From NCBI GenBank assembly GCA_030141605.1, contig JAQGDQ010000135.1, positions 466,620 through 530,619 of the forward strand: a stretch of DNA of 64,000 bases, in the 5' to 3' direction. The DNA is from Tubiluchus corallicola. Its lineage: Eukaryota; Priapulida; Priapulimorpha; Priapulimorphida; Tubiluchidae. Below the pieces are notes generated by a model. That model made no database searches and had not been told where the DNA came from. It saw only the letters and a list, made by a program, of their open reading frames with translations. Position 1 is the stretch's first letter. Each line of letters begins with the position of its first letter. Below are positions 19,866 to 64,000 of the stretch, piece by piece. Both the position numbers and the translations under genes were made by a program.

Positions 19866-32331
<12,466 letters not shown>

Positions 32332-34545: not shown

Positions 34546-36255
34546 CTGATATGCATGACTGAAGCCATTCTCAGACTTCCCTTTACCACACCATTCATGT
34601 GTTTTGTGACATTCATGACATTACAGTTATGAGATCATGTTTTCCATATGACTGAATCAAAACCCATTAATACATGCATAAATAAATAATACCTCGAAAG
34701 CTAGTTTAAAGACAGTCATCTCACACCCTACAAGAATAATTATGAGACATTTCACTACATAAGTGGAATTAAAATGTCAAGAAAATCAATTGCTTCGTCG
34801 TTTTAAAGAACTACTAAATGGAGAATTTATTTAACCGTACACATACGTGACTAAGATGATACAATCAGAAACAGCTAGTCTCGGGCATGAGCTTTCAAAC
34901 AGCAGTAAGATTTAGGAATTTTTCTCAATACTTGACATATTTTTTCGAAAGCATAAAATACGTTCGCTAACACTATTCTATAACAAATACACACAAATTT
35001 ATAAACAATTAATTGAGCAAAAAATTTAACATGGCAATAAAAACTTTTGTCAACCATGCCAAGTGAAAAGAAATGAAAAAAACTACCAGTATACTTTTAT
35101 CAATTACTGACCAATTGTTTTCACTATAAATTTTTAACATGGAAAATCAATTGTAACAGCAGCATTACCACAGCTCATATTGGCAATAAAACTATATCAG
35201 AAGCAGGAAAGATTATTACATTCATATAATATTATCAACATAGTCAATCGTACAAAATACAAACACTGGTACAAAATTACTATAGTGATATGTAAACTTA
35301 CAATTACTGTACTAGTACCAGAAGGTATTAATAACCCAAATTACTATAATAAGACTAAGCAGATACAAGTAATGTAAAAGTTGATATAATTTGCTATGCT
35401 AGCAAACAATACTATATGTAAACTACAGAGTAATGATGGCTGTGTGTATTGCGTAAGTTTAGTAAAAATCCAGGACATTTTTAAGAAGTTACGTATTTGA
35501 CAGAATGTAGATTCTAGCTGATTACAACACAGTTTTTTTAAAAACACCAGACACATTTACCATTGGCTCACATTTTTAGTTTCCTTCTGTATTCGCGTAT
35601 CTAATGATTCTAGACAAATATTTTCTTGAATTATCAGTACCCATATTACCTCACAGTTGAGACCAGAAGATCGAGTGATACTATGAATGCACTTTTGAAC
35701 ATGCTTAACAGTTTGACATCTTCTTGCCATTGTTTGCAGCAAACAAAACTAAAATAGAGACGGGAATATTGTCTTATCATTTGTCACGAGACAAAGTTCA
35801 AAAATTTCAATTATATTAAATTTTACAATTAGAAAAACAATACTCTTAAATTTATACATGCAAGAAGCACGTCAAATTAAACACAGTGGAGGTATCACTA
35901 TAGCACAATCACAGGCATTTCTTAGGTTTTTTATATACTTATCTATCTCGTCTTACGAAATAAGAGAGTAGTGTAAGCTCAAAATGTGAGCACACTCACT
36001 TCTAAAGGGCATGTAGCGAAGCGAGAGTTTCAGCTACATAGGTTTGTATGAAGGACAATTACCAGTATGTACATAAACCAAAGTTCATTACGTGTATGTG
36101 CACAAATAGTGCACGCATCAAAGTTCAAAGAAACAGAATGTAAAAATTACAGTTATTACAATAAGAAAACTAGATCCTTTCTTCAATTTTTGTAAAAGCG
36201 TCTTTAATAAAGAGAACAATATTGAGGAAAAACTGTTATTCTAAGTGAAAAAGCA
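34546..36255. other. No gene recognised
   Basis: AT-rich region upstream of the galactosyltransferase-like gene. A 58-codon minus-strand frame begins ATGGCAAGAAGATG near 35730; it has no motif I can place and no clear splice partner. The cytoplasmic-tail exons of the Turtle-like gene could in principle lie here, but I could not identify any. Confidence 0.4.
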
Positions 36256-37236
36256 ATGCGGGGAATGAAACAATGGGTTGTGCTAATGACATTGGTGGTT
36301 GCAGTTTACTTGGCACTCAGACATATTGTGGAAAAGAAGGTTGTGCTAAAAACAATACTGATTAGGAATTACAAATTTCCAAAATATATGATACCTTGTG
36401 GTGATTCGTTTGACTGCATGAGTACAATTTCGTCAATGTGTACCGGGAAGGTTGAGTTAATGGCATTTGTGCTGTCGAAATCATCAGACAAACAGGATAG
36501 AAAATGCATTCGAAACACGTGGGGTTCAGTTATAAAGCAACAGCCAAAGCTGAATCTGGTTTTTCTCATTGGAAAAAGTGAAAATAGCACCATGCAAGCT
36601 TCAATAGTGAAAGAAAACAAGGTACACAGGGACATCATACAGATAGACGTTGAAGATCACTATGATAATTTGGTGCATAAATCAGTAGGGATGCTGTCCG
36701 TTGCACGCCAGTTTTGCCAGCAGGCTCGGTTTGTGGCTAAAGTCGATAGCGATGTATTTTTAAATGTTTATAATATTACAGAAAATTTGCATCGTGTGCA
36801 TGACAATATTATCATTGGCCGATTGCTAAAAAACAAAGTGCCAATTCGTGATCCTGGAGACAAATGGTACATATCAGAAATGGAGTACAGTAAATCTGTT
36901 TTCCCTGACTACGTTTCTGGGCCGGCTTATTTTATCGGCCAAAAGGCTTTAACACACTTATATAGAGCAGCACTAACAGTGCAACTATTTAGAATGGAAG
37001 ACATTTACATTACGGGATTACTAGCAGAATATGCAGGTGTCATTCGTAAAAACATGCTGCATTTCTATGCAACAGACAAGCAGATAGACAGATATGATGG
37101 CTTGAAGCATCCAGAAGATGCAATGGTTTTGCATCCTTTATCAAATGAAAAGCTCAGGTTAGCTTGGAAAACTTACTTGGCAAACACCAACAAATTAAAA
37201 CAAACACACAGTAAACTGTCTACAAAGAATATATAA
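36256..37236 (+). CDS. Beta-1,3-galactosyltransferase-like protein (GT31), single exon
   Basis: Type II Golgi glycosyltransferase of family GT31, 326 residues, one uninterrupted frame. Residues 7-22 form a signal anchor (WVVLMTLVVAVYLAL) with a short stem. The GT31 motifs appear in order: RKCIRNTWG (82-90), LVFLIG (101-106), a DIIQIDVEDHYDNLVHK segment (126-142), KVDSDVFLN (162-170) with the metal-binding D-x-D at 164-166, FPDYVSGPAYFIG (216-228) and MEDIYITG (247-254) carrying the ED pair thought to include the catalytic base. Enzymes of this family transfer galactose or GlcNAc from a UDP-sugar in beta-1,3 linkage; the acceptor cannot be predicted. Many animal beta-1,3-GalT genes have an intronless coding region, so this need not be a retrocopy. 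The D-S-D replaces the more usual D-D-D, which still fits the D-x-D rule. Confidence 0.9.
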   Translation: MRGMKQWVVLMTLVVAVYLALRHIVEKKVVLKTILIRNYKFPKYMIPCGDSFDCMSTISSMCTGKVELMAFVLSKSSDKQDRKCIRNTWGSVIKQQPKLNLVFLIGKSENSTMQASIVKENKVHRDIIQIDVEDHYDNLVHKSVGMLSVARQFCQQARFVAKVDSDVFLNVYNITENLHRVHDNIIIGRLLKNKVPIRDPGDKWYISEMEYSKSVFPDYVSGPAYFIGQKALTHLYRAALTVQLFRMEDIYITGLLAEYAGVIRKNMLHFYATDKQIDRYDGLKHPEDAMVLHPLSNEKLRLAWKTYLANTNKLKQTHSKLSTKNI

Positions 37237-37689: not shown

Positions 37690-38930
37690 TTTATGGACCT
37701 CTCCACTCTTCCTTGTTTACTTTATTAACATAAAAAATGAACATAATCGGTGGCCATACATGCTACTATCATGAAGTGTAGCACAAGGTTACCTGTTGCC
37801 ATTGTGGCAACCTGAGGTCTATATATATTTCTGAATTGCATTTCCAGTGTCTATCAAGACGAAGCTTAAACTGGGCAGGGTTGGCGGCTTGAACTACAGT
37901 GTCAGGCAGCATGTTCCACTCATCAATTACTCGCCTTGCAAATGTGAACCTCTTTCTACTCTACCTTTGGGGAACTGTTCTCTTCTTGATTTTGTAGGAG
38001 TGACCTCTGGTACCATGGTATGTCTTGTCGATGGAAAAATATTCGCTGTTGATGGTTTCTATACCTTTAAGGATACGAAATGTTTGAATTAAATCTTGTC
38101 TTTTGCATCTATACTTCAGAGTTGTAAGGCGCAGACTCTTGCAACATATGGTAAATGAGAAACAGCAGGTCGAGTCTCGCCGTTGTATACTTTCAAATTT
38201 CCTTATCATGTCTTGAAGATTTGGGCTCCATATCACATCACCATAATCCAATATAGGGTGAATCATTGATTTATATAGCTTGGTCATCATAGATCCATCA
38301 AGAAAAGAAAAACTATGTTTGATTAAGGTCAGTTTTCCATGTGCTTTATTAACAACGTTGTTTACATGTGTTTGAAAATTAAGCACACTGGCGATGGTGA
38401 TACCCAGATCTTTTACTTCTGTGACGCTTATAATTTCTCTAGAACTCTCATGTGCCATTTTATATGTACGATCTGCAATATCATGCCTTCCAATAGTCAG
38501 GAGTTAACATTTTTCAGTGTTAAATTCCATTTGCCATTGGCGACACCATTGGTCAGCACAGTTAATATTATTCTGCATGACCTCAGGCAGCATGCTTTTC
38601 CATATATTTTAGTGTCGTCTGCAAACAGGCTTTTACTGCAGTTGAAAACTTCAGGAAGATCATTTATGCAAATAGTAAATAAAATAGGTCCAAGCACACT
38701 TCCCTGAGGTATACCGCTGGTCACATTTGCCCATTCTATAATTCTTGCCCGTTGACTACTACACATTGCTTTCTCCGACAAAGAAAACTATTAATCTATG
38801 TTAGCAGGTGACCAGAAATTCCGTATGTCTCAAGTTTTTGAAGCAGTCCAGACGGGGGACTCAATCAAACACTTTTAAAAAATCGTAATAGATAACATCA
38901 ACTTCGCCTTTATTATCAAGTAAATCCATC
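37690..38930 (-). mobile_element. CR1-like LINE relic, reverse transcriptase C-terminal half
   Basis: Minus-strand frames give, in order, EVDVIYYDFLKVFD (palm A, about 38920-38870), SGIPQGSVLGPILFTICIND (38727-38668), FADDTKIYG with the catalytic F-A-D-D (about 38640-38610), and WNLTLKNVN. These are followed by a 165-codon frame with EVKDLGITI, LYKSMIHPILDYGDVIWSP and KFESIQRR, ending near 37961. Order and spacing match CR1/Jockey-clade polymerases. A stop in the first block and frame changes show it is inactive. It lies between the GT31 gene and the membrane-span exon of the Turtle-like gene. Confidence 0.88.
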
Positions 38931-38958
38931 CATTAATTAATTATTAACAATTACTTAC

Positions 38959-39924
38959 CGTATCTTTTATCACTGTACTTTTTCCGTTTGTCCTTCTTTG
39001 CATATTTACTGCAGAAACGCACCGCTATGAGTGCTAAAACACCGGTAACAGCCAGGAAAGTCAGACCACCAATGAGTCCCGCTTTTCCCGCCCTTCCTAA
39101 CTGGAATGGTTTTCCTGAAAGAAAACATCTCCCTGATTTAATGATGAAGACATATATTGCAGTCTAAATAGCCAGCATAACTTCAATTAGAGACGTGTTA
39201 AACGAAAATACACATTATTTAGCCATTTTGGGATTATTTTGTTGTTATCACTTTTAACTATAAATATAACAAAACTGTATATACAGTGTGAGGTAAATTT
39301 ACACTATTGCAGTATAAAAATTTTCAGGTGCAAAGGGAATTGCCACTCATTTGAAAATTATGAAATTATGCAAACTCACTAAATAAGCATGTCCAAGCAT
39401 GAGGTTATCAAGACTTTAATGTGATTTTACTAATTGTAACAAGTTGCTTATCCCACTTGTTGTTGAATCTTGCTAAATTTTTTTTGCAAATTTCTAATAT
39501 ACCTAACTTCCAGGGAGCTTATCTATAACAAAAATAACTAAGACAGTAATAACTAAAACAATAATATAAAACTATGTAATAATATTGTACAGCACAAAAA
39601 ACAAAGCATACATACTTGGTATGTCTAAAAATTTTTCTGCGCTTGGTTCACTAAATGATGTTAAAGTGAATGCGAAGACACGGAACCGATATCTCACCCC
39701 AAACTGCAAATTTGTAGCAAAATATTCGGTTTGAGTGCGAAGCAACCGCGGACTGAGCTGCCTCCAGTGAGCATTCTAGAAAAACAAAACATAAAAATGT
39801 TATATTAATACTTTAGTACATTTCATGTATTTACATTATTTGTAATTATTAGCAAAGTAGTCTTTAAGATTCTGTCACGAAAAATCATGTAATCAAAAGC
39901 TGCACATAATTTCATTTTTTATTA

Positions 39925-42900: not shown

Positions 42901-45900
42901 GTAGTAGTAATGATGTAAGCAGGTCGGATGCAAAAATAACGTTATTAGGCCTTTCTGCACTTGGGTCCTTGATCAAACTGCCTGTGGCCCGCAGGAATTG
43001 CGGGAAAGTTTAATGTGGCCTGGCTAGTCAGATAATTTGCACACCCCTGAACTAAGCACTTTAGTTAGTAGGAAGGAGACTACAAAGTTCTGCTCGAGTA
43101 TCAAATGGCTTGATAGACCAAGACACAAGTAGGATTCGAACACAGAATCTCTAGATCGACAGCCAAGTGCCTTAACCACTCAGTCACTCTGTGCTTTCTT
43201 AGCTGGGACTTTTCCAAAAATCAATAATTTCCTTAGGAGAAGAAAAAAACAGTACTAGCACTTTTATCATTCACTTCACAGTTGTCTAAATATCAATGGT
43301 CTGAAGCTTGATCAGATTCACTGCTGCAAGAAAAATCCGGAACATTAAAAGCACCTTATATAGTAATAAACACAATTGCATTTGGTAGAAGTATAAACTT
43401 TGTGTTTGAAATAGTCTTTTGGGCGAGTGTGTGGTGTTCACTGCATCACATCACTGGCTCTGAATGTTTTTGGTAAGCTGAAGAAAGTGGCATCAGCTAT
43501 AGAGTATAGACTCAAATTTTAAACAGTCTTATAAAAGAGCATGTACGAAGTAAATGTACCACAATTCGTAGGTCTGCAAATGTCGTCCACGTAGTCCATC
43601 AAAGGCCGGATCCCACAACACAGTGGCAGAGAAAACAGCAGAGGCAACTCTAACATTTGTGGGAGCATGTGGTGTAGTTTCTGCAAAAACAAAACTAACT
43701 TTAATATAAGATAGCTTAGTAAATGCGCATTGCAAATGTAAAGAACAGCCTATTTAAATAATGGCAGACAACGAAGACGACCACAACATGATTGCATTAT
43801 CACCGCAAAAAATGTGTAAAAAATTCATAGACAAATGTTCTTAATTTTCTACCAAACTTTTCTTTTTGTAATGATTAACGTAAAAGATTAACTACTTTTA
43901 ATAATTTTTCAATGTTTGTCCTAGACATATATCACAAAGAAGAGGAAAGTATCTTAGCAGAAACAAAAGGATAATTAGATAAACAGAAACAATAATATGG
44001 CTATAGGCCTACTACTAATATTGTGTTCATCAGTCACAATAAACTAAAATAATGAAAGAATAAAAATGTCCAGTTCTGGAGACATCTCTATATCTAGTAG
44101 GGTGTTCTAAGATGGATGTATAAAAAAGTTCTGTCAAGAATGTCAGCATAATTTGGCCTATTAATTACATAAAAGTCGGTTTCATGGTCGCAATAAGTTT
44201 AACTAGCAATTATGAGCATTTAACTATCACTAATTTCCACTAGATAGTGACATTTATACAAAAAGGTTTACCTTAAGAATCTACTTTGTTCTTGTTAGAA
44301 AAACCACCAGAGAAACTGCTATAATTATTATGGTAATTAAGTAAGCCTTTCTTCCTGCTTTCCTGGTATTATCAGTAGTAAAAAGTGAGCATAAAGAAGT
44401 GTGACGTAAATGTTATCAACTGTGGACATGCACATAATGTACTTTGCACTGTCGTCACAAAACACTTGAGCACTTAAAATAAACGTAACGAAGAATACAA
44501 GCTAGTATACTTTATACTTTATGCTCTAGACATATAAGTTTAGTGTGGAGTGTAACAACTCACTTACTTGCCGTATTAGTTTATTATGCACTGTGAAGTG
44601 TAACTGCTAGTGTGTTTGCCTAATGATGTTTTTCGTATATAAGAGCATCAGAAAAACTTTAAATAGCATATAAGAGTAAACAGTTTATTTGTACTTTTAT
44701 ATATGATTATCTCTGGTTTGTTTGAACAACATACAAAGATGTATATTTTTCTGCTATGTCAGACTTATGGACATCACTTTACGTGAACTCATTGTCTTTT
44801 TGCAACCTACGACATTTCATACTCTGAACAATAACACCAAAAAGGTATTATAAGAGACACATGTCAGATTATGACGAGTGTGCATACACGGGCTGTTATT
44901 CAGTCCTAGCATGTTGTTTGTGCGTTGGTATATTCGTCATTACCCCAGCTATTACATCATTAGCACTTGGCATAAAATTCAATGAAAGCGATTTCAGACC
45001 AGCAATTCCGATGATAGTACTGGGGTCAATGTTCACAGGATTTGGATTGCTAGCGCTTCTGCTTCCATTTTGTTATATTCAAGAAATAAAGGAGGAATAT
45101 CACCTCTGTCCAAGGTAAATGGTTTAACATGATGATGTTTTGAACACTTGTCAAAATGTTGTCAAGACATGATGTTTAATTTACAAATGATTTCATCCAA
45201 AGATTAAATGAACTACATGTAGATTTAAACGAATTAACTTGGTCTCAATCAGATTTGGATGTTGCTTAGCATAGGTGAGCATGTAAATACAAAACGGTTG
45301 GCTCTGAAACCCTTTAGGTTATTATTCATTATTCATACCATTAACATTATTCATGGTAACCCAATACTGAATTTTGTCTTCACTACTACAGGAGCTTTAG
45401 AGGAGGTAGATTGGAAAAGAGAAAAGTAACCAAATATTTAATGCGCAGCTAGAGCTCAGATCCCACTTGCTGTGAAAGAGTTGTTGGAATCAAGTCGGTT
45501 GTCTTGGAGATATAGCATGGAAATACAGACGACTGAGAATAGGAGTTGACCAAGGGTGTTCAGGATCAAGATCGTCACGAAACCGTCCTGAACCTCGGAC
45601 TACCTAGGGTTTAACTGAGCTGAGTGAGCCATCAAAACAGTGTGGTTTCTTATCTGGAAGTGTTTTAGTAAATTACTAATTTAATAAGCAATATTTGGTA
45701 GATAGAGCTAAGAATCTCCATGCCTCTCCAAAAACATTCGTCAATCAAATGTTTCTTTATCTAGGATAGAAGTAAACACATCTCGGAAGAAGTTTGCAGA
45801 AGGAGTGGGCTGTTGCTTCGCCTCAGCTGTCTTTTTTATTGGAGGGATTGCTTACTTCATAGTCTGCATCCAAAATCAAGACGGAGCAATCTCTGCCATT

Positions 45901-48900
45901 GCTGCCGTGCTCCTTGTGCTTCTGGGAATTCTTACCACAATGTTTGCTTGCCCTTTACTTAGGGATGCTACAGAAGTGCAATTTTTAAGAAGGTAAGGAA
46001 AGCAAACAATGTTTCTGACACTGAGAATGACTTTCGTTTGTTTATAAGGTGTTTGAAAGGCGTTTTTGTTTATATAATTACAGTATGTTAACTTACACAA
46101 AACAACCTACAGACTGCTCCAAGCTTTTAGTTTAATAATTGTAACAATTCTAGTTTGTGACGCTCATAGGCTTCTATTAATATTCATGGATTCCTGACAG
46201 AGAGCTGAATATAAGCAGAGGCAATGCAGCTATTAAGCAGCCATAAACAATTTCCTTCAAAAAAGTAGGATTTTATTTAACAACGAACAGCCTGATGACG
46301 CTACGACAAGGGCAAGTCACAGATTTAGATGCACTAAGCCAAAGTTAAGTGTCTGGCTGCTCAACGTATATAATTCAAATTGCATTTGCGATATATTCAA
46401 CACCTTCGCATTTTCGATTTTGAATTCAATTTCAATTTCAATTGTTATTTTAAGCATTATGCAGTTCAGAGATACGGGGTCAAATACTGGAAGTCAGACA
46501 AATTCAAGCATACTGCATACAATATGATATTAAAAAGCTGCTGACTCAAGAAACACAGAACTACGCAGGTTTCATGCAGGTGTGAATATCTCTATCAATT
46601 ATTTATTGCAATCAAATTTGATTGAACGGAATACGTACTACCACTGATGCTATCAGCTTCTGTTTCTATCATTGCAATTCTACCTAGATTAAAGCTTCTA
46701 AGTACTGAAACCAATCAAATTCCTTTAAAGAAAATTACACACATTTGTTATTTCCTTGCAGGGAAAGATATCCATTGACACGAAGAACACAAGAAAGGCA
46801 ACCACAGTCACAAAATGTGTCAGATAATCCAGCATTTAACGGTGATACACCTGAACTGTCAACGCCGAGTACAGAACCCCCGTCGGGATTCCAAGCATTT
46901 CCCAGGCCAACTAGGCCTACAGCACCTGGGGCATTAAGCCAAGAAAGGTCTCAAGACTCCAGACAACCGTCTGCGCCACCGTCACGTGACCATCACATAG
47001 ATATGTTACCTACGTATGCTGATCTGCAGCATCCTGATGAGGAACTACCAAGTTATGAAGAAGCAATCAAGCTTTAATTTTGGTGTAACACTGTAACCGT
47101 GTGATGATTCATCATAGGTGGTACATGCATTATTGAAAACTGACATGACCTGGTCCACCAGAACTAGTGTTTTTGATGTCTCGCAAAAAATAAAAGTAGA
47201 GAATGATCATTTCAGGAGAAATCTAGAATAGTTGAACTTGTATAAAATAAACCTCAATTTTCCTATCACGTTAGTGAAATATAGTGTCTTCTGGTCTTTT
47301 AACTTTTCAACTGAACATTTTTAGCTAAATTCAAGCAACGTCATTCATAAAAATAGTATGCACCTGTTTTTAATGCCTGCTCAAGAGAATCTTTGTGAAC
47401 TGTAAATGCAAATGTGTATCAGTACTTTTGTAAATAAGCAATATGAGTGCACTGTATTAACCCGTTCATACCCGTTGTATCCCGTGGGATACGAGAATAT
47501 TTTCTGCCTTTAAAATTAATAAAATTTTAAAACTGACAGTTGTTTGATCTGTTAATAGTTTTTTGATTTAAGCCAATAACATTAGACTAAAAATGGTGAT
47601 AAAATGGCAAAGTAGAAAATCTACATAGCATAAAAAACTGCGCAAGGTACAGTACTTTAGAGACGACTTTGTACATATCAGCATACCATGCACACTAAAT
47701 GTCTTAAATACTTTAAAAAAATTATCAGCAGTTGCAAAATGAAGCACATTTTATGCTTCAATTGAATCCCAATGTATCTTGTGGGATACAGGCTATATTT
47801 AGCACACGGGTAAAGGTAGAAAAAAGAAAATTATTATGTGTAAACAAGATGGACATACTGAACAAAAGTACAAAGCCAAAAAAAATTTCTTATTAAAAAA
47901 TAATTTGGGCATGAAAGGGTTAATGTTGCCTGGTAAACAGTGTTGGTAAACGATGCAACTGCAGGAAAACAAATGCTACTGTAGCATTTGTCTTGTGCAG
48001 TTTAAAAGAAAATTCGACTCAGACAAAAGCAGAAACCACAGAAAATGTAAACGATGGGTAAACAAATATTTTTGCTCCCTCGGGTGCCCTAAAATATTTT
48101 AGACTTTCATTCTTCAGCCAAATTCTGTTGCATGATAATAAGAGGGGAGAGAAGAATAGAAACAATAATAAATATTTATTTTACATAATTTAAGAGTGAA
48201 CAAGTGTTGGTAGAGGGAAAAGTTGTGAGAGGGAAAAATAGCAAGGAGAGGATGCTAAACAGGAATAAAAAAGAAAAAATGGACTGAGAAAAAGACAGGG
48301 AGAGTGCATGAGAGAGAGAACACAAGATCAAAAAGACGAAGAGAGTTAGAAATGAAAAGGCGATGTAATTATGTAATTTATGAAATGAACTTTGAACAAA
48401 AACAGAGCAGCTAACATTTTATACCTGTACTGTGTGGTCGAGATAAGACAGGTGCATTATTTTACCTTTGACATTAAATAAAGAGAAATATCAGCATCAT
48501 TACATCAAGGGAAATGGAAAAATGGCAAATTTACGGTTACATGTGGGAGACAGGTTAACATCTGGTTTTTTTGTTCTTTTTTTAAATTATTATTTGGATG
48601 CGCTTACAGTGGTGCAAGCACATAACAAGTGATACTGCTCATAGAACACTTTAGCAACTTGCCATATAATGTAGTTTTTGCATTTTTGGGTTTCGCATAA
48701 TTACTTTTTTTCTTGTGTTTAGTCAATTTTTTTGGATTTATTTAAACCAATCACAACTTTCTGTTAATAAAACTGACATGTTTTAGCCTGGAACAGATCA
48801 GTATGCGTGTGTGTGTGTGTCTGTGAGTGAGTGAGAGAGAGAGAGAGAGAGAGAAGGCCCGAAAGGAGCCAGAGAAAAAGTAGAAAAACCTAAGAAAAAG

Positions 48901-51900
48901 AAACAAGAGCATAGACGTACGGGGTCCCTAAATTTTTGGGGGAGCAGAGGATTCTTTACCCGAATTGTTAGAATTTTACCAGATTTTTTAGGCCCCCGTT
49001 TCAACAAATACAACCATACTAAGTTCCAGATAGTGAATACAAGAAGGCGTCATTTCTGATGACATAAGACTGAACTCATGAAGCTGATCAACATTATTTA
49101 GTAGCCATATTGAAATGTGATGCACAAGACATGACATGACCTATATGGCCAGATATCTTGATAAGCTGTGCTTGTTTGATTATGCACAAGCACCTGGATC
49201 ATTAACTTTCTAAGATTGTCATTGATCATGGTATAAACAGTGTCCTAAGAACCAGAAGTGCAGCAATAACTTCCAGAACAGAAGAGTTTACTTCCAGTGA
49301 ACATTCAATGACTGAGATGACAGAGCAATGGACCAGTAAAGAGGAATTATCCATATTTCATGACTGATATACGAATCGGTTACATGATCTGTCAAATCAG
49401 CAATCACCACACAAGATGCAAGAATTAAGAATGCAGCTATGCACAGACAATTGCCACTTTTTCACGTCGGTCAGATTAACTCAGAAAAAAAATTTATCAA
49501 AGGACCAGAAATCTTAAAGCACAAAGTCGGGATTTTGTAAATAATATGAAATAATGGGGAATTTGTATTTGATAATCAATGCGCTCGTACCGAAGACAGG
49601 AAGCGATAAGAGTTTTGTAAACAATCGGAAACCAGCAGAGAACCCAACGACTAGTATATTTTCAATTTTGCGAATGCTAATTGTTTCCAGACCACTCTCA
49701 CTGCCGGCCGGCACCAGGAGTCAGTGTGGACCATGCCTCCTGTGAGATCAAGATTCGGGCATCCAGGTGCATGGCATAAATGTTACTCTCTCAAGATTTG
49801 GGCCATATTTGAATCCCAGGAAAAAATAAGGTGATGACGATTGAAATCTGAAAAAATATCAATTTCGAAGTTAAAAAACTATTTTCTGAAAATATAAAGG
49901 ACAGCTCTGCCCGGATTTTGGCATCAATATTGCCCGAATTTTTTGAAACCCGAACATGGGGTGGGGGCAGTCTGCCCTCCCCCTGCCCCGTATGCCAATG
50001 AACAAGAAAGAGAGGAAAAAACAGGGCATGAAAAAGTGCATAACACAGACAGGGAGAGAAAAAGACAGTGCATGAGAAAGTGAGAGTAAGAATGAGCAAG
50101 AGATAGTGTGAGTGACAGAGAAGGAAAAAGGAGTTAGAATTAGTAAGACAACATAATTCATGGAGTGAACTTTGAACAAAAATAGAGCAGCTAGCACTTC
50201 GCTCTTTTACGATGTATGCTCTAGATAAGACAGAAACATTATTTTACCTTTGGCATTAAATAAAGTGGAAAATGAATTAGTGTCATCACGTCAGTACAAA
50301 TAGCAAATTGTCAAATTCATGGCTGCATGTGAGAGACAAGTTCAATTTTTGAATCACATAGAAAAGAATACTTTTTTACCTTGTTACTACATGACACACA
50401 AAGAGAGAATTTTGCTTGTAGCTGATTTTCAAGTTTAGAAATGGATAAAGCGAATTAACCTATGACTGAGAAGAAGTATGCCATTTTACAGTAAGAAAAG
50501 TTTTATATGTTAGAGTTGCTTAATGATAAAATGCTTCTTACATTTATAAATAGTTCATTATGTGTAAGTACCCAAGTTTGATTGTAATCAAGAACACTTG
50601 ACCCACCAAGTCTCCAGAAACATAAAGAAAAGCAGTGTAAATGTACATTGTATACATTTTTGTAAATTTACATTAAGCCCAAATATTTTATTTGCTTATC
50701 AGTGCTGGCGTAGTTCCTTTACTAACCTGCTAAAAGAACTTGTCACAGTTACAGTAACAATTCTAAAAATGAAGCTGCCAAAAAAATAACTAACTGCAGC
50801 TATTTACAACGCACTCTTAATAAATATTAGGTTTGGTTTTGTGTCACTAATTTCAAGACATATGTAACAGTGAATGTAACTGTTATTTCTGTCATAACTT
50901 ATACCAAAAAAAGAACTGGTTACAGTTATTTCGAAAAATTTGTAACTTGTTGCAGTTACTTGTTGCTCCCATCATTGGTCATTTACAGAAATTTGATTTG
51001 TTCATCACATAACAAAAAGTACAAGGTTGCACATTGTAAAACAAACTAATTACAGATTGCAAAACATCCTGGTTTTTTTGTTCTTTTTTTTACATTATTA
51101 TTTGGATGCGCTTACAGTGGTGCAAGCACCTAACAGATTTTTTGCTTCAGGTCTTACTATCAGTGACATATGCTATCACTCCTTCATTTGTTAAAGATGT
51201 TTTAAATGATTTAATCAGAAGTGACTTTTCCTTTTTAGGCAATCTGCAATATAATGATATTCTACAATATTTATGTTGTGAATAATTTGTGATTCTGTAA
51301 TTTAAAACCGAACTCAGTATCGCATAAGTATGTTAGTTAATAGCACATTTTGTTTGTGTAAAGATATGAGTTTTTTAACTACTAACCGACATTGTTTATT
51401 TTATTTATTTATTTACGCAACTAACTCAATGAATGTATTGTATTTACAATAATCCAAAATGAATCACATATATATATATATTGCATATTGTAATATATTG
51501 CAATTGCATATATATTGGCAATCATATCATAATCATTAATATTAACTGTATGTTCTTTTTCGTAGTTTCCACAGATTGTATAACTGTATTTCCAATTAAA
51601 TAAATTACTACTAAAAATGAATTTCAACACTAATTGAAGGTAATCTTATTGTAGGTGACTAAAACAATGCCTACTCGCAGACGCAGACACGCACAGGAAG
51701 AAGTGTCCGACGAATGTAATGGAATAGGACTGTTATGTTTTGGTTCAGCATGTTTCATAGCAGGAATTGTGATAATCGGAATTTCAGTGAAGAGAGGATG
51801 GGGAGTGGGTGGAGGTTTGGGAGGAGCAGCTTTGATCGTTTTGGCTCTTCTCAACTGTTTTTGTGGTTGGTGTTTCATTTACCAAGCTACGGGGTGCAAC

Positions 51901-54900
51901 ATTCAATGTCCTCGGTAATTATAATATTACAATGAAGGCATGTTTTGACGTTTGTCATTATGGGTAGCAATATTATGGATGCCAAAGATTTGTGAGCACT
52001 AAGACTTTGCGCACTGAAAATGTCCAAGCATGTCAAATGCACCTTCATCCAAGTAACACAACAATATTTGTGTCATTGCAAATCAAAACCGCCTATGAGT
52101 CGGCATACTTAAAACTACGTTATGAGGCTTCAATGTAGAATGCACAAAAATTTGTTCAAATGTCAGTTTTTTGTTTTCACAAAAACAAATGCTAATCATA
52201 TTGGATTGTTATATTCTAGCATCAAATTATCAAGAAAATGTAAAAAAAATCCAAAAAACTAATTTTATAACCCCGTACCACTTTTTTGGTTAGAAACTAG
52301 TAAAAAAACTTTTACTAGAAAAAGTATTTTCAAACTCTCATAGTAACTCGTGGTAGCAGTCATTTTGCTTACGATTGTTTCTGTTGCTAAGCGCTGTTGA
52401 TCTTCCATCAGTAAGGGTTATCTACTTAAACATTAGTTCAATGTGTTCTTGCACAATCTGTAACAACGACATTTGTGTCGTTGCTAAGTGTTTTGTAGAA
52501 ATACAACAGAAAACAATGGCTAACTTTAACAGCGATTTTCTCAAGGTTACGTTTTCAGTGCATACGTGCATAACAATTTCAACGTGGATTATCTCAGCTT
52601 AGAAATAACATAAAGCAGTGAGCTAGGTATCAAAATGATTCTCATGAAATGGAGATTTCACAGAAAAGCTTAATTGCCAACTTGTGGACGATTTTGCTAT
52701 GCAGGCACACATTTAATGTTGCATAATAAAGATAACAACTGCGGCAATTTTTTTAACACTTTTCAATCTTATTAACAGGAATGTTTGTGTAGCTTGTGTA
52801 TTTTTAGACAGCTGCAATTAGTCTGATAAGTTTCAATACACATTAAGATCTATACGAACCCTGCAGTTTCGAAACTTTACACTGCTTAATCTACCATTTA
52901 AAGACACTGTGTAATATAAACAGTGGCTTCTTTTAAAATTTGAAAATACGGCCACCGCGGGCATTGATTGCAGACTTTTAAAACAGGGTCTCCATCCATC
53001 TGGTGTGCACAGTTAGTCTTCATATTTCTGCAATTTCTTTAAAAAAAATCAGTATAGGAGCTCTATTCCAAGAACTAGCTAAGAATAAATCAGGATTTCA
53101 CGATTTTGAAAATTAATTGTCTATTAATGAACTTTCATTCATTAAGGCCAATTATCTCTTCTTACGAACAAAAAATGACAAAAACTGCTCAGTAAATCGA
53201 TAGGAACACTGGCTATGAATAGCTTCAGTTTTAATCTTTTGCAAATTAAATAACTAATTAACTAAGAAAGAAGCCGAAAATCGACGATTTTTTTGTAGGA
53301 AGTTCTCTAGTATCTTGATGAATCATTCGTCTGAGTTTCATGATGATAATATTTTTTCGATGCAAACTTATGAGAAAAACATTAATTGCAACTGTGGACA
53401 CCAGACAGACAAGGATCCCCTTTTAACGGGATTCTGTTAGTACTCAGGTATTAGCTAGTACTATCAAGCTATTTGATGCACAATGTAATTTTGGGGTTTT
53501 TGCTTATATTAACAAGATTTTTTATCTACAAACTAATCTTTAAACAAATTAACCAATACATAGAACAAGAGAATGGGTTTAAGAGACTAATGAGAATAAG
53601 AAAAAAAGAAAAAAAGTTTTTATTTATATAACTGATGTGATACGTATTTGTTTCAGCCTGGAGCAGATCATTGTGGGCAGGCAGCAATCCTTTCGCCGTT
53701 CTTCGCCCGAACACAATGCTGCTTGTGAAAGGGAGACACCAGAATGTGCAGAAAACTCTAGGCAAAATGTGCAGTCTGACTCAGTTGCTGCGCCTGATTA
53801 TGTTAGAACATCTAACAATAGTGAAGGGATACCGACTTCACAACAAAATAGTGCTCTTCCACATTACGATGAAGTCCAGCCACAAATTTCTCAGGACAGT
53901 CAACCACCAAGCTATGCAGAAGTAATGATTTGCCAAGACAGTATAACTTTTGAAACTCTCAATGCAGCTGGTCTGTTATCTCAGCCAAAATGACAGTTCG
54001 TCTTGATTATAAACAGTTCATTAGTAAAAACAACAATAACAATGACATTTAAGGTGCTACAGAAGAGGAAATTTTTCAAAAGAGGTGGCTCACTAACCAC
54101 TACAGACTACTAGCTTAGTATTTTTACTCGATGCAAGATGTATGAATCATATAGTGAAAAACTTCGGTGTCAAAAGTACAACTAAACATGTAACCAAATT
54201 TGCTGATCAGAATTACGACAATAAAACACTCATATTCTATCAATCAATTTATGCTCACAAACTATGCAGACTACTTTCAGAAAACTACTACGTTACTAAC
54301 GAAATCGAAGAAACTCTGATTTTGTGTGACTTGAGCCTAAGAAATAATCTGAGAAATGATCTCAAAGTTCCTGGTAAACTACAAGGATTGATGAAAAAAG
54401 AGAGTGCTCTTCTGAGAGTTGCCATGGTGACAACAGTAAAAGATGTGAGAATGCTCTTTCAAGTATCAAAAAGTTCTTTATTTTTCTTCAAAATCTTTCA
54501 TCCGTACAGATTTTGTCAGCTGAAATCAACTTGATATAGCCTACATCTTGCAAGACCTATAGTTCAGCCATATTATTGATAGACCATATTACAAATTGCT
54601 CAAGATGGACACTTTCCAAATTTTGCAGAAATTACACTTAGAGTAAAGGCTTTGAAACTTTCATAGAAGACAATCTAAGTCAAGAAACTATGTCTCATAT
54701 TCATTGTCAAGCATTTTTGTGAGCCTGTTTGTGTATGTAGGACTAAACATAACATGTAGAATAACTTTAGTATGTAAATATTATGCAATATGTAAATTAA
54801 TTCTATGCAATATGTAATAGCTGCATGTTTTAAGAATTCACTATTTTGAAAGCTGCAAAAGGGATCAAAATACATTAAAAGCAATTCCTGTAAATATGAA

Positions 54901-55290
54901 AATTGAATGCAATGTATCAGTGACCATTAGTTTTGAAATAACATCCATTAATTGATCAGCTTGTCGCATAGTTTCCAAATGGTAGCTTATCTATCCTTTA
55001 TCAGTGCTTATCTATTATAATAAATACACTAAGCATATAAGAGACAGAATACACTTTTACTTCTGAAGTAAAATTTAATATACCAAAAACTTTATGAAAA
55101 TAGTGCTATTCATACTACTTTGAAGAAACAATGAAGGAACTACTATTTTTATGGAGTCACTGGCATATTAAATTAAGCCTTTGAAGTAAAAAGACATTTT
55201 CTCTCCTATGTGGTTAGTGTGTCTACAGGGTCATCCTGAAAAAACATTACAAGCAAATTTTCTTTAATGAAACAAAATATACAAGTCAAA

Positions 55291-55321
<31 letters not shown>

Positions 55322-58300
55322 GTATATGTTTATTACTAGTTTGTTAATTATTGTTATATATATTATATTATATATATTGTTATATTACAAACTAACAATA
55401 TATACACATGCATGCACGCACACATGCACGCACGCGCGCGCACGCATGCACACACACACACACACACCTAGATTTTTACACACTAGGACAAATTTAGCCT
55501 TAAGTTTTACATTTCATTCCTGATGTGGTATAAAATTGTATTTTCCACAACAAAGACAAAGAAATTTTTCAAAAATTAATTTTGTTGTTTTAAATAAAAA
55601 AGACACACAGCTTTTCATATTTCTTTATGCGAATTAATTAGAAAACTGTCCTGACTTAGATCCTCCAGATTTTATTACATCGGAGAACTAATCTGAGCGT
55701 ATCGTGCAAGAAAAATCAAAGATGGAACTGAACTGAAAAATTTGGTTCAAGAATGACTAAATTTCTGTAAAATGAGATTAATTTAGTTATTGACTAATTC
55801 TGACCTGATTAACAACGTGATCGAAATGGAACGAAAGTACTATTTTCTACTCTTAAGTAGTTAAAAAATATCAAAGCTGAGTTTTTTCATTTAAAACAGT
55901 AAATTTTTGAGACACTGTTTTCTTTGCTGCGAAAATACAATTTTAAAATCGTGTTTTTAAGAAGTTGAGCAGAAATGAAACATAGAACTTATGACTAAAC
56001 CTTTTGTTGTGTGTAGAATATACAAACATATATATATATATTCATATTCATTGTTATTCTGTTAATTTTTTATACATTTTTGTGATTTTTGCTTTATTAA
56101 AGAATTCATAGAAAATGTTCTTTGGACCACAGCTATTGACAAAGAACAGACGAGCCACATCTGGGAACACATCTAGTCGATCAATTAATGGACATTATTT
56201 AAACTAATACACTGATATCATTGACGCGTTAACATTCGATTCATTAAAAATAGAAGGAATATTAATGCAAGCTACACTTACGCAACACCAGAAGAGATGT
56301 ACTGGCAACAATGGTTGCAACGTCATTCGAAGCAATGCAGTTATATTCACCGTGATCATCTTTTATGATGTTTGATATCTTTAGCGATTCATTGGTGGCA
56401 GCCGATCGGTTGAATGGCAACTGTTTCCCATTAGTCTGAAAAAGTTTCACACCCTACTTTACTATTACTTATCAAATAAAACATCACAACTATTTGATCA
56501 TGCTTAGAGTGGAAACTAAGTACCACACAGATTTGAATTTAACAGATCCAAACTGGATGAAGACGCACATTGCTTTTTAAATTAATTGGATTTCTAACTA
56601 CTGATGCATTGAAACTGTATTATTCTTTGGCTCACATGCCAACTATCGCCAAAGGTCAAAACTCCTCTGGTTTCTGGACTTCAGTGGAGTCATCTGGATC
56701 TGTTCAAAAAATACACATGTTTAATAAATGATGGCTAGTTTTACAAATAAATTGATATACATTCGAAATTTAATTTGTTGAGAATATCCGGCTTTAAAGG
56801 ACTTAATCCACTAACTGCCAAACCTCCACCAAATGCGTAAACTAAACTCTTCAGACTTGGGAAGCACTTTAGCTTACCAACAGAGCCAGGGACACTGCTC
56901 CCGCTGTACAAATAAAAACACCGCATTTGAGATTTTTGAGAATTTTATTTGGACAAAGTACCGCATCAGTTCCAAACCATTTTTGTGTTATACTTAAAGG
57001 TCAGCTAAAAGTACTTAAAATGTTTTGCTAAATGTAACAACGCAATAAACACAAGAATATTTTTTACAAAACATCACTTATGGAAACCTGAAAGAAGTGC
57101 AACTTCTTTTGTATTCGCAACGAAGGAAAGCAGGATGATTTTCATATCCTGCTCTATTTTTTGTCTTAATTAAAGTTATAATAATGATGATGATGACGAT
57201 GATGATGAAGACGATGGTGATGATAATAATAATGATAATAATAATAATCTGTTTTGAAATACGGTAAAAAGTAAGTGTTTTAACACCTATAATAATGCCA
57301 AAGTGTTTCTGATAATTAAATAATATGTTAAAAAACTAATTAAGGTGAGTGCAGGGCAGCAACACCCGCAATAAACAAAACACGCCCATCAATATAGTTT
57401 CATACCTGGCTTGTCGCAGTTCATTATGGTGTTACAGCCTTAGTTTTGTTAGTCAGTGTCGGGTTACAACTTACCCTCTTCCACAGAACTGATGTAACAT
57501 TCTCCCCGGTTGCCACACAAGGCATTTTTACTGCTTCTCCTTTTAGGCGCTGGTAAATCAGTTCCGGCCTTTTCAAAAACACAGGCGGATCTAGAATTAC
57601 AAGTACCTACTAAAATACTAATAGATCCAAATTCATTGCCTGCTGTAAGAAATCAACACAGTCAAGTAAAGAAAACCACATGACTATGGTAAAGAACTGA
57701 CGCATATAGCAAGATAATTTTATTAAAATCATGTTTCTTTTTTACTTTACACTGAAAAGTAGGGAGCATGAAGACAGCTTTCTAGTCGTTAAATAATTAC
57801 GTTACATCAGTGCACGAATGCATTTCAAATGTCTTCAATTCTAGAAATAAATTACGAGAAAGTATTGTTAACCAAAAATGTTTTGATGTACCCACACAGC
57901 TGCAGGAGAGTGAATTTACCTTTAACATCAACATGAATTTCGGCCGACGTTCCTATTGTGCCAATGACATTGTACGGTGTACAAGTGTATACTCCTTCAT
58001 GACGCTTTTTAACCTGTAATAAGTTTTGTTGTAATACTTATTTTCCACCAGACAAAGTGAATAACAAAGATAAACTATTTTTGTACGAATGTATTTGCAT
58101 GCCAATTATTCATACAGTATGCGCTAGTTAAGAAAATTAGGTTACTAATGTAGCTATATTTAAAGTAAACCAACACTTAAGCATTATTAGTTAAATAACA
58201 CTTGCATGAAAAGTTTGTACCTAAAAACCAAAACCCTTCTTAAGTCGGCATAGTTAAAACTACGTTAAGGTGCTTCAAAGGTAGAATGCACCAAAAATTT

Positions 58301-62785: not shown

Positions 62786-63512
62786 TAATTATTATTATTA
62801 TTACTGTTTCATTTTTCATCAGGGAATTATAATAATTTCACAGTGCACATCTCGTTACAAGTGCATTAGTTTTATTAAGTATAAAAGAAAATATAGTGAT
62901 GTTGTCAGAATTATTACACAATCAAGTTAGTCCACTGAAACTCGAAATTAGGCATTATCATTTACGAATTCATGATTTATTTAAATATTAAATGCTTTTA
63001 TGTTGATATCCGGCTCCACACAATAGTGAGGATGACTTCGCGCCATTCATAATTAAGATGTGTACTGTCTTATTTATGCTATTCTTAATTTTGCATAAAG
63101 CATTTTAGAGGCACAAATTATAGCAGAAGTACATTCTTTAATTATAACTTCTCTAAGCATGGTGCTTTATTTTTTTATAATTTCTTTCATGGTTGAAAGA
63201 TAACCGATCATAGTCTGCTTTCCCAATTTGTGTTTTAATAGTGATAATACTTTACACAACTTACCGTATCATTTTTCGTGACATTAATGATATGTAGCGA
63301 TGCATTATTGACTAGTGACAACCTTCCAGCATAGTCATCATGCACATGCGGTGGATAGGGATCTAGGCTAAGGTACACTGATTTAAGATAACCCTCTCTC
63401 TTCCATTCTACAGCGTAATCAGCAGGACGGTCATCGGGATAATTTACCACACATGGAAGTACGACAGTTGACCCAACGGTGGATATGATATTTGCAGACA
63501 GCAGATTGTTAT
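38959..63512 (-). CDS. IGSF9-like: Turtle/IGSF9-like Ig-FN3 adhesion receptor, 16 exons, both ends missing
   Basis: Type I neuronal-type adhesion receptor. Exons on the minus strand: 63512-63265, 62382-62298, 62062-61947, 61065-60912, 59995-59832, 59461-59338, 59056-58866, 58013-57920, 57590-57475, 56435-56282, 43680-43560, 41975-41797, 41321-41244, 40201-40053, 39775-39616, 39114-38959, about 763 codons. Domains in order: five Ig domains (two exons each), FN3-1 (HAPTNVRV, then NNELGFGMFSPVVV), a linker exon, FN3-2, and one membrane span (GLIGGLTFLAVTGVLALIAV) followed by a basic stop-transfer tail. Diagnostic Turtle/IGSF9 features are DYAVEWKREG with YPPHVHDDYAGR in Ig1, ARVSHTD with NLVTWTKND in Ig4, and TYTCTPYNVIGTIG after it. 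The model starts in phase 1, so the signal-peptide exon lies upstream, probably past 64000. It ends in phase 1, so cytoplasmic exons follow; I could not find them. Confidence 0.92.
39922..39947. repeat. TA dinucleotide run
   Basis: A short (TA)n microsatellite followed by a T run, in the intron between exons 14 and 15 of the Turtle-like gene. Confidence 0.9.
42566..43049. mobile_element. hAT MITE with 8-bp target duplication
   Basis: The 484-bp element starts CAGGGATGTGCAAATT and ends AATTTGCACACCCCTG, inverted termini matching at 15 of 16 positions. Flanks are AACGAAGC (42558-42565) and AACTAAGC (43050-43057), 7 of 8 matching. CAGGGGTGTGCAAA ends and internal GCGGCCCGC/GTGGCCCGC motifs are typical of hAT elements. 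It carries no coding capacity and lies in the large intron between FN3-1 exons 11 and 12 of the Turtle-like gene. Confidence 0.9.
43122..43194 (-). repeat. tRNA-derived SINE head or tRNA pseudogene
   Basis: On the minus strand the sequence reads GCACAGAGTGACTGAGTGGT, continues TTAAGGC and, after an anticodon-arm-like stretch, GTTCGAATCC. These are good internal polymerase III A and B boxes with tRNA-like spacing. The acceptor ends (CACAG and CTTGTG) pair, but the T stem does not, so it is a SINE head or decayed copy, not a working tRNA gene. Confidence 0.6.
44861..47077 (+). CDS. Four-span membrane protein with LPxY tail, 3 exons, family not recognised
   Basis: Exons 44861-45114, 45765-45992 and 46762-47077 join in phase 2 at both introns, giving 265 residues. 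Hydrophobic segments lie at about 12-37, 46-73, 95-120 and 125-148. The tail (162-265) is polar, rich in Pro, Ser and Gln, and ends LPTYADL (243-249) and LPSYEEAIKL (256-265). L/P-P-x-Y motifs bind WW domains of NEDD4-type ubiquitin ligases, so the tail is probably cytoplasmic and may control turnover or sorting (inference). The first loop has a likely glycosylation site (NESD). The gene lies on the strand opposite to the Turtle-like gene, wholly inside its 12.6 kb Ig5/FN3 intron. A shorter relative follows at 51667-53993. I do not recognise the family; it looks superficially like small metazoan PY-tail tetraspan proteins. Confidence 0.8.
47246..47251 (+). promoter_or_regulatory. Candidate polyadenylation signal of the four-span gene
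   Basis: AATAAA lies 169 bases beyond the TAA stop and before the piggyBac-like MITE at 47457. Confidence 0.45.
47457..47923. mobile_element. piggyBac-like MITE with TTAA ends
   Basis: TTAACCCGTTCATACCC at the left and the inverse of TTAACCCTTTCATGCCC at the right match at 15 of 17 positions and each include TTAA, the exact target of piggyBac-superfamily transposases. Just inside are TGTATCCCGTGGGATAC near 47477 and TGTATCTTGTGGGATACA near 47773, themselves small palindromes. The interior has no coding capacity. It lies just downstream of the four-span gene. Confidence 0.85.
48280..51140 (+). repeat. Duplicated repeat: 48280-48635 against 50030-50345 plus 51066-51137
   Basis: The two regions share GAACTTTGAACAAAAA-AGAGCAGCTA, TTATTTTACCTTTG-CATTAAATAAAG and CATGTG-GAGACA in the same order. 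The end of the first copy (GGTTTTTTTGTTCTTTTTTT, then GGATGCGCTTACAGTGGTGC at about 48600) is found again at about 51070-51123, about 700 bases further on. The second copy is therefore interrupted by extra sequence (about 50350-51065). Both carry GA-rich low-complexity flanks. Probably two insertions of one transposon family, the second with a later insert. Confidence 0.75.
48804..48856 (+). repeat. (GT)n then (GA)n microsatellite
   Basis: A GT run (about 48805-48820) is followed by GTGA units and a GA run to about 48854. Confidence 0.95.
51667..53993 (+). CDS. Two-span membrane protein with PPxY tail, 2 exons, relative of the 44861 gene
   Basis: Exons 51667-51914 and 53657-53993 join in phase 2, giving 194 residues. 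A basic N-terminus (MPTRRRRHAQEE) precedes spans at about 19-41 and 50-72. The first exon ends ...CPR across the phase-2 intron exactly as in the four-span gene (LCPR there, QCPR here), and the last exon is again a polar tail with LPHYDEV (150-156) and PPSYAEV (166-172). It therefore looks like a paralog lacking the middle two-span exon. I found no candidate middle exon between 51915 and 53656, though the intron holds a dispersed repeat. PPSY is a canonical WW-domain ligand. It lies on the opposite strand inside the same intron of the Turtle-like gene. The ATG at 51667 is chosen as the first in frame; the function is unknown. Confidence 0.75.
52085..52690 (+). repeat. Dispersed repeat, copy 1 of about 600 bp
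   Basis: It aligns along its whole length with 58230-58795. Shared words are AAGTCGGCATA/GAGTCGGCATA, AAAACTACGTTA, CAAATTATCAAGAAAATG, TTTTATAACCC-GTACC, GCAGTCATTTTGCTT and GAAAAGCTTAATTGCCAACTTG, in one order and orientation. It lies within the intron of the two-span gene. No terminal repeats were identified. Confidence 0.85.
54142..54534 (+). CDS. Unverified 130-codon open frame
   Basis: An uninterrupted frame starts about 150 bases downstream of the two-span gene, probably in its 3' untranslated region. It is Lys-, Asn- and Leu-rich, with no domain, signal or splice evidence I can recognise. At this AT content a frame this long may be chance. It is listed so that it can be tested, not as a gene I support. 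Confidence 0.15.
   Translation: MNHIVKNFGVKSTTKHVTKFADQNYDNKTLIFYQSIYAHKLCRLLSENYYVTNEIEETLILCDLSLRNNLRNDLKVPGKLQGLMKKESALLRVAMVTTVKDVRMLFQVSKSSLFFFKIFHPYRFCQLKST
55290..55316. repeat. (AT)n microsatellite
   Basis: A pure AT dinucleotide run of about 27 bases, about 80 bases before the alternating CA/CG tract. Confidence 0.95.
55398..55467. repeat. 70-bp perfect purine-pyrimidine alternation (CA/CG/AT)
   Basis: Every base from 55398 to 55467 alternates purine and pyrimidine, including a CGCGCGCGC core near 55432-55441 and a terminal (CA)n. Such tracts are the classical Z-DNA-forming sequence. It lies in the large Turtle-like intron. Confidence 0.9.
57182..57248 (+). repeat. (GAT/AAT)n trinucleotide microsatellite
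   Basis: Imperfect GAT/GAC units pass into AAT units, in the intron between Ig5 exons. Confidence 0.9.
58230..58795 (+). repeat. Dispersed repeat, copy 2
   Basis: Partner of 52085-52690, in the same orientation. It lies in the Turtle-like intron between exons 7 and 8, ending about 70 bases from exon 7 (58866). Confidence 0.85.
62511..62580 (+). repeat. tRNA-like sequence, probable SINE head
   Basis: GATTGTATAGTGTAATAGAT, then AATGCATCTG, and after an anticodon-like arm CGTGCGTTCAATACC. The A-box and B-box spacing is tRNA-Arg-like, but the stems are degenerate. Intronic in the Turtle-like gene. Confidence 0.4.
62752..62803. repeat. (AAT)n-(ATT)n inverted microsatellite
   Basis: About nine AAT units run directly into ATT units, forming a long AT-only palindrome that could extrude as a hairpin. 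Confidence 0.9.
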
Positions 63513-64000
63513 CTAAAAATAAAAATTTTCTTTGTAATTATTTTAAACAAAACCCACAAGTTATAATTCCAGCCAGAAAAAAACCGATTCTGTCTTACCT
63601 CATGAGCTCAAAAGATGTCAGTAGGAAGGGAGGAAAAATTTTAAGCCTTTGTGAATGTTTCGAGCCGAATCATGGAATATTTAAAATCAGCTGAAATCAA
63701 AGTTTGTTCATTTCCCACTGGTTAGCAGTAATGTTTCAAATCTTTCAGTGCACATTTTTCATGCTTTGTTTTTTAGTTTTTTATTTCACATTACTATTTT
63801 ATATTAAACCCATCAATTATCTTTTTTGCATCATGAACATATGTTCTGATAATTATGGTATAAGCGGCAACACTGTCAGCCATTAATACACTTATCTGCT
63901 GGAAAATTCGATACTTTTCACCTGCAATACGAGGAATATCATACAAAACGGCAACCCTGGCCAAGAGTTAGTCAGAGAAAAACATGGCTGCATCCCCATC
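63513..64000. other. Upstream intron of the Turtle-like gene
   Basis: Intron 5' of the first recognised Ig exon. A donor-like CAG-GTGAAAAG occurs on the minus strand near 63922-63912, preceded by a short frame, but no start codon or convincing signal peptide fits, so I do not call an exon. Confidence 0.4.

Follow-up and report, generated by a model that had tools for sequence, protein, structure and literature searches.

In this study we describe two small genes, termed gene A and gene B, that lie within a stretch of 64,000 nucleotides (hereafter the window) of the genome of the priapulid Tubiluchus corallicola (assembly GCA_030141605.1, contig JAQGDQ010000135.1, positions 466,620 to 530,619 of the forward strand). 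The two genes are probably old and distantly related paralogues, and the most likely role for their products, to which we give about an even chance, is that of membrane adaptors which recruit ubiquitin ligases of the NEDD4 family to a partner protein for its sorting, in the way of Commissureless and NDFIP. A first-pass annotation of the window had pointed out both as related small membrane-protein genes with tails that resemble ligands of WW domains, nested in the intron of another gene. After reanalysis the existence of two spliced genes at this place was confirmed at the level of sequence, and the observation as a whole is sound, except that one exon was misassigned in the comparison between the genes.

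Gene A (44861-47077, + strand) consists of three exons, which together give a single open spliced frame of 265 amino acids (aa), while gene B (51667-53993, + strand) consists of two exons encoding 194 aa from an ATG at 51667. Exon 1 of gene A (44861..45114, +) carries the start and the predicted membrane spans 1 and 2, as judged from its open frame, the GT donor in phase 2, the hydropathy and a two-helix model. Exon 2 (45765..45992, +), a symmetric exon with phase 2 at both ends, carries spans 3 and 4 and is the apparent counterpart of the hydrophobic hairpin of gene B, and exon 3 (46762..47077, +) encodes a polar tail with LPTY at residue 243 and LPSYEEA at residue 256, followed by the stop codon. 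In gene B, exon 1 (51667..51914, +) carries the start, two predicted spans and a phase 2 donor, and exon 2 (53657..53993, +) encodes a polar tail with LPHY at residue 150 and PPSY at residue 166, again up to the stop codon. Both features that the annotation had emphasized were thus found as described: the last exon of each gene is polar and includes two (L/P)PxY motifs (PY motifs), and the first exon of each closes with C-P-R, the R codon being divided by the phase 2 intron. All three introns (650, 769 and 1742 nt) are bordered by GT and AG and are in phase 2, and the frames stay open across the proposed junctions 45114/45765, 45992/46762 and 51914/53657 (note that the stretch used for the frame test of gene B began one codon before the ATG). 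Because a possible acceptor (TTATTGTAG/G, the slash marking the boundary) is located 12 nt before the start of gene B, an upstream 5′ exon of this gene is possible. Gene B is, however, not simply a further exon of gene A, since the phase 2 donors of gene A would meet a stop codon at the acceptor of gene B. Possible polyadenylation signals AATAAA, a common word in AT-rich DNA, follow gene A (47246..47251, +; further ones at 47189 and 47518) and gene B (54220..54225, +).

The N-terminal parts of both products are predicted to be embedded in membranes. The hydropathy windows that passed numbered five for A and three for B, including one overlapping pair in each, and accordingly the annotated numbers of spans, four for A and two for B, are borne out; the approximate ends of these spans were set at residues 14-34, 50-72, 98-120 and 126-148 of A and at 19-40 and 50-72 of B. 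Structure prediction by AlphaFold2 gave a two-helix hairpin for exon 1 of gene B, which was aligned with exon 2 of gene A (helices 5-42 and 47-74; mean pLDDT 67.3, pTM 0.40), as well as for exon 1 of gene A (helices 3-39 and 48-82; mean pLDDT 68.4, pTM 0.41). The confidence of these predictions, made on single exons, is low, and the models are too uncertain for comparing folds. Lysine plus arginine counts are 0, 5 and 7 for the segments of A predicted to be cytosolic and 2 and 0 for those predicted to be luminal, while the two predicted cytosolic segments of B have 4 each and its predicted luminal one has 2. These counts lean to cytosolic ends, and are consistent with cytosolic tails of both A and B. 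One of three N-glycosylation sequons of A, N41, falls in a predicted luminal loop, the first one.

The relatedness of A and B is carried mainly by the collinear whole, because the matches between single modules are weaker. By BLASTP, residues 90-263 of A were aligned with residues 3-173 of B at 23% identity (43/188 columns), with an E value of 0.004 in this single comparison. The local alignment of the whole proteins scored 81, a value that no shuffle out of 1000 preserving hydropathy classes attained for A or for B (means 35 and 37); the reversed controls scored 46, and a score of 68 was left after masking the PY motifs. Furthermore, the intron after R161 of A and that after R83 of B are in the same phase and lie only one codon apart in the alignment, in which A160 stands opposite B83; this offset is within the slack of gap placement. 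The claim of two related genes sharing intron phase and tail design is thus supported by BLASTP, shuffling and intron position, and local duplication as the origin of the pair is probable.

The pairing of exons turned out to differ from that in the annotation, where the middle two-span exon was supposed to have been lost in one gene or gained in the other. In this form the proposal was rejected, since exon 1 of gene B aligns with exon 2 of gene A (score 51; shuffles as good, 7/1000 and 3/1000; reversed, 25) and not with exon 1 of gene A (score 37; shuffles as good, 108/1000 for both sequences; reversed control higher, 46). From the alignments we conclude that gene B corresponds to exons 2 and 3 of gene A, exon 1 of gene A representing either an extra hairpin or one that was lost in gene B. 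A faint sign for the pairing first proposed is that, among the three membrane exons, only the first exons of A and B share both D-E-C before the first span and the C-P-R end. An internal duplication from exon 1 to exon 2 of gene A was also considered and rejected for want of any signal (score 29; shuffles as good, 553/1000 and 542/1000).

The tails are the parts that suggest a function. The C-terminal end of A is MLPTYADLQHPDEELPSYEEAIKL, and the tail of B includes SALPHYDEV and QPPSYAEV, the two PY motifs being spaced by 13 residues in A and 16 in B. Shuffled tails reached at least two (L/P)PxY motifs in 76/20000 trials for A and 6/20000 for B, figures that flatter the tails since these were picked for the motifs. 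Each tail has a sole lysine, K264 of A as the penultimate residue and K194 of B as the last one. Over the 215 residues of both tails arginine outnumbers lysine (15 R, 2 K), whereas the reverse holds for the 1241 residues from other genes of the window that served as reference (47 R, 83 K; Fisher p ~1e-4). YxxPhi sites are located at the PY motifs, YADL at 246 of A, and YDEV at 153 and YAEV at 169 of B. A DNA pattern for (L/F)PxYEEA was found at five places in the genome and its reversed form at none, the five being gene A itself, a tail exon of sushi type, and a short LPGYEEA frame in three identical copies. The sushi-type exon, with LPTYEEA, belongs to exons for a sushi-domain membrane protein on contig C4 near 523172, SUSD-like by eye, and the three LPGYEEA frames, which are on three contigs, are probably a repeat. 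In a word search of the literature for the heptapeptide LPSYEEA, one paper only was found, which deals with LAPTM5 (PMC3411835).

The searches for known families covered Pfam, NCBIfam, PDB, GTDB, IMG/VR and the genome itself, with no eukaryotic proteomes among them. No Pfam family was detected at the cut-off, the best matches being DUF308 for A (E 0.042) and Kinocilin for B (E 0.15), and NCBIfam gave one match for A at chance level. PDB contained no match for A or B, and a profile built from both gave two chance-level matches only; GTDB (A) and IMG/VR (A and B) gave no match, as expected of an animal gene. Within the genome (343.5 Mb), whole A and whole B recovered their own loci, plus one match of B with E 6.7 on contig C748 that was taken as chance, and exon 2 of gene A alone recovered its own locus only. 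Since the genome protein searches score few candidates (4, 4 and 1 passed the first look) and use single sequences, not alignments, distant copies could escape. The two appear to be real orphan genes, related to each other and of a known functional kind, and members of no family considered here.

The WW domains of NEDD4-family ligases are binding sites for PY motifs. Matches to the WW domain number 26 in this genome at E <=0.001, spread over 18 contigs, and four WW repeats in one array on contig C1033 have a NEDD4-type look by eye. Starting from the gene structure, the motifs, the statistical paralogy and these genomic WW domains, all of which are shown here, we infer the topology, WW binding, ligase recruitment, adaptor role and partner in the following way. 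A and B would be small proteins that cross the membrane several times and keep their N and C termini on the cytosolic side, the last exon adding a polar and nearly lysine-free cytosolic tail with two (L/P)PxY motifs. A HECT ligase of the NEDD4 family may be captured by the tails, through its WW domains, at endosomal or plasma membranes; the hairpins would gather a partner membrane protein, and the ligase would then mark this partner for endolysosomal sorting. By working principle, A and B would thus belong with the PY-tailed membrane adaptors, a plausible and ordinary kind of sorting protein. The membrane adaptors on which NEDD4-family ligases depend are scattered and have little in common apart from PY motifs, and paralogues that keep a hairpin and a PY tail but differ by a whole two-span exon would show how adaptors are built through gain or loss of exons.

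Several known systems resemble A and B in part. LAPTM4 and LAPTM5 are lysosomal multi-span proteins (Mtp in Pfam), Commissureless and PRRG4 are single-span proteins, unlike A with four and B with two predicted spans, and the PY motifs of NDFIP1/2 precede the spans, unlike those of A and B. Bringing a ligase to a partner, as proposed here, has been described for Commissureless with Robo1 (PMC12101832) and for ENTREP with CXCR4 (PMC8811627), and SUSD4 is described to bind NEDD4 through LPxY and PPxY sites of its tail, together with a receptor (PMC7972451). Commissureless and PRRG4 are small membrane proteins with paired PY motifs like A and B, and LPSYEEAI of A, with LPTY ahead of it, fits the extended motifs GLPSYDEAL of Commissureless and GLPSYEQAV of PRRG4 (PMC5578492), while the fit is looser in B, which has PPSYAEV with LPHY. 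Conservation of Commissureless outside the motifs is described as remarkably low even among insects (PMC5578492), and in one of two studies cited in PMC12101832 it was still functional with all cytoplasmic lysines replaced. NDFIP1/2, multi-span PY adaptors and activators of NEDD4-family ligases, are of the kind proposed for A and B, but have three spans (PMC8811627) against four and two by hydropathy. ENTREP/FAM189A2, which activates ITCH, is similar in that its C-terminal tail, which is cytosolic, carries two PY motifs, and differs in its CD20-like region, in the single span of the transcript tested and in motifs 42 aa apart (PMC8811627). The likeness to SUSD4 lies in the motifs of the cytosolic tail, for which NEDD4 binding was shown, whereas its sushi-domain ectodomain is matched by virtually none in A and B (PMC7972451). 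None of the Commissureless, NDFIP and ENTREP/FAM189A2 families was among the Pfam matches of A or B.

A number of observations weigh against the reading of A and B as real, related adaptor genes. Codon usage lends no support to their coding status: with a measure trained on 1241 codons from other genes of the window, exons 1 to 3 of gene A scored -0.04, -0.03 and 0.19 bits per codon and exons 1 and 2 of gene B 0.05 and 0.07, and a rival frame outscored the coding frame in 4/5 exons, the coding frame being best only in exon 2 of gene B. Even a gene that is certain hardly stands out by this measure, as the galactosyltransferase of the window, left out of the training as a test, scored -0.02, against a mean of -0.19 for 29 control open reading frames (ORFs; at least 60 aa), three of which scored 0.04 to 0.08. 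The similarity between the tails alone is weak (score 47; shuffles as good, 26/1000 and 42/1000), and only the last PY motifs pair in the alignment (LPSY of A with PPSY of B), LPTY of A standing opposite QPQI of B. The genome searches described above showed no relatives of A or B beyond their own loci, and inspection of 7 kb at the array of four WW repeats revealed no HECT domain. The sequons N89 and N179 of A and N136 in the tail of B fall on the predicted cytosolic side. Finally, the sushi-type tail exon of the same genome is also lysine-poor (2 K and 9 R in 150 residues), and therefore poverty in lysine may just accompany polar tails, instead of being a special design. Mistaken gene models or dying genes, with frames due to chance or remnants, would agree with the codon usage, and also with the presence in the window of 14 frames that reach 110 aa or more from stop to stop and with the frame tested beside gene B (54097-54534), which has no Pfam family. 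We regard this explanation as very unlikely, since five exons are phase-consistent with GT-AG introns and zero frame breaks, each membrane exon encodes a hydrophobic hairpin, the tails carry PY motifs and the homology spans an exon junction, on which grounds A and B are taken as real genes. It is also unlikely, though less so, that A and B are unrelated neighbouring membrane genes each of which gained a PY tail. The sequences are short and hydrophobic or polar with low complexity, and the chance-level match of the two first exons, for which the reversed exon 1 of gene B scored higher, and the weak match of the tails would fit this view. Against it stand the whole-protein score in comparison with its reversed, shuffled and PY-masked controls, the same-phase introns within one codon, and the adjacency of the genes in the same orientation.

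With regard to the role, A and B might instead be LAPTM-like endolysosomal cargo that directs its own sorting: the PY motifs would recruit NEDD4 to send the protein itself to lysosomes, where the hairpins would serve another purpose (transport, lipid or scaffolding). This is a possibility to be kept in mind, though on balance doubtful. LAPTM4 is described as being itself sorted to lysosomes (PMC3214061), and LAPTM4 and LAPTM5 have C-terminal L/PPxY motifs as do A and B, the side of whose tails is predicted (PMC3214061, PMC3411835). A resembles LAPTM5 in its four predicted spans and in LPSYEEA, which is identical in both tails (PMC3411835), short as the motif is and open to convergence. The second prolines of the PY motifs of LAPTM4b, P205 and P221, are 16 apart like the motifs at 150 and 166 of B (PMC3214061), and PMC5578492 describes a C. 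elegans relative as LAPTM4-like with four spans. The YxxPhi sites at the PY motifs of both A and B point in the same direction, being a lysosomal sorting motif. In contrast, Mtp was absent from the Pfam matches of A and B up to E 10 (HMMER filters can hide very weak ones), only two spans are predicted in B against a multi-span membrane part in LAPTM, and the tails are nearly without lysine. A genome-wide search for Mtp also gave no match, but its controls were equally silent, and so it says nothing on absence. The argument from lysine is softened, as the sorting of LAPTM5 is reportedly independent of its own ubiquitination, to go by the title of a 2006 study by Pak. Ligases of the NEDD4 type are not the only partners of PY motifs, and the 26 WW matches spread over 18 contigs would leave room for tails that bind other WW proteins (YAP-type or dystrophin-type) or that work by tyrosine phosphorylation. 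We consider such tails improbable, because the motif is followed by acidic residues (LPSYEEA, LPHYDEV) in a way that resembles the Nedd4 ligand Commissureless (GLPSYDEAL; PMC5578492).

Both genes are nested in a host gene of the opposite strand (38954-63537, - strand) that encodes five Ig domains, two FN3 domains and a membrane span. We take this arrangement to be that of IGSF9/Turtle, and in this sense nesting in an IGSF9-like intron, as annotated, is supported. Ig matches were obtained for five pieces, each a single exon piece or two joined ones, with pieces 2, 3 and 5 over the curated cut-off and pieces 1 (E 0.0008) and 4 (E 2e-6) below it, while fn3 was over the cut-off in two pieces, the second FN3 domain with E 9.6e-9. 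The hydrophobic span (38954-39163, -) was recognized by eye and has no Pfam family. The host intron of 12,601 nt (43681..56281, -) extends from the end of Ig5 (donor C/GTAAGT) to the start of the first FN3 domain (acceptor TGCAG/AA), as read from the sequence, and the last base of the Ig5 exon (56282) and the first base of the FN3-1 exon (43680) join in frame to give LLVL-Q-TTPHAP. Since the intron, examined by eye and with two simple patterns, showed no frame resembling Ig or FN3, and its ends can be joined, A and B lie antisense within one intron. Nesting as such is ordinary, as in Drosophila about 6% of genes lie within introns (PMC3786989). The nested position makes co-regulation testable, yet it is in itself no evidence of a shared role, and we hold it extremely unlikely that A and B form a lineage-specific family of PY adaptors with two or four spans and almost no lysine in their tails, acting on the Ig/FN3 receptor of their host gene by removing it from the cell surface, as Commissureless controls Robo. 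Ig2 to Ig5 of the host are each apparently split across two exons, and the first Ig exon lies near 63238-63537.

Upstream of gene A, the window contains an SLC3A2-like gene (23260-30979, +), of which the first exon was identified by Pfam and the later ones by eye, and the galactosyltransferase gene (36226-37236, +) with a single open frame. Frames resembling remnants of reverse-transcriptase retroelements were noted by eye at 936-1421 and 37961-38503 (-). The ORF at 54097-54534 (+), located just 3′ of gene B, encodes 145 aa; a control ORF as long as this frame scored -0.116 bits per codon, inside the control range. Between genes A and B a local tandem duplication (48286-48556 and 50056-50342) has copies with 76% likeness over a tested part of 183 nt, which had no non-local copy among the 40 genome matches that were scored. 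The repeats between the two genes (48286-48491 against 50056-50273, and the 60-nt element described next) stop short of the exons, and a duplication of the genes at the DNA level was rejected. A 60-nt element at 48566-48627 and 51074-51135 has dispersed copies of 81-92% identity, 37/40 scored matches, from 64 candidates, being on other contigs.

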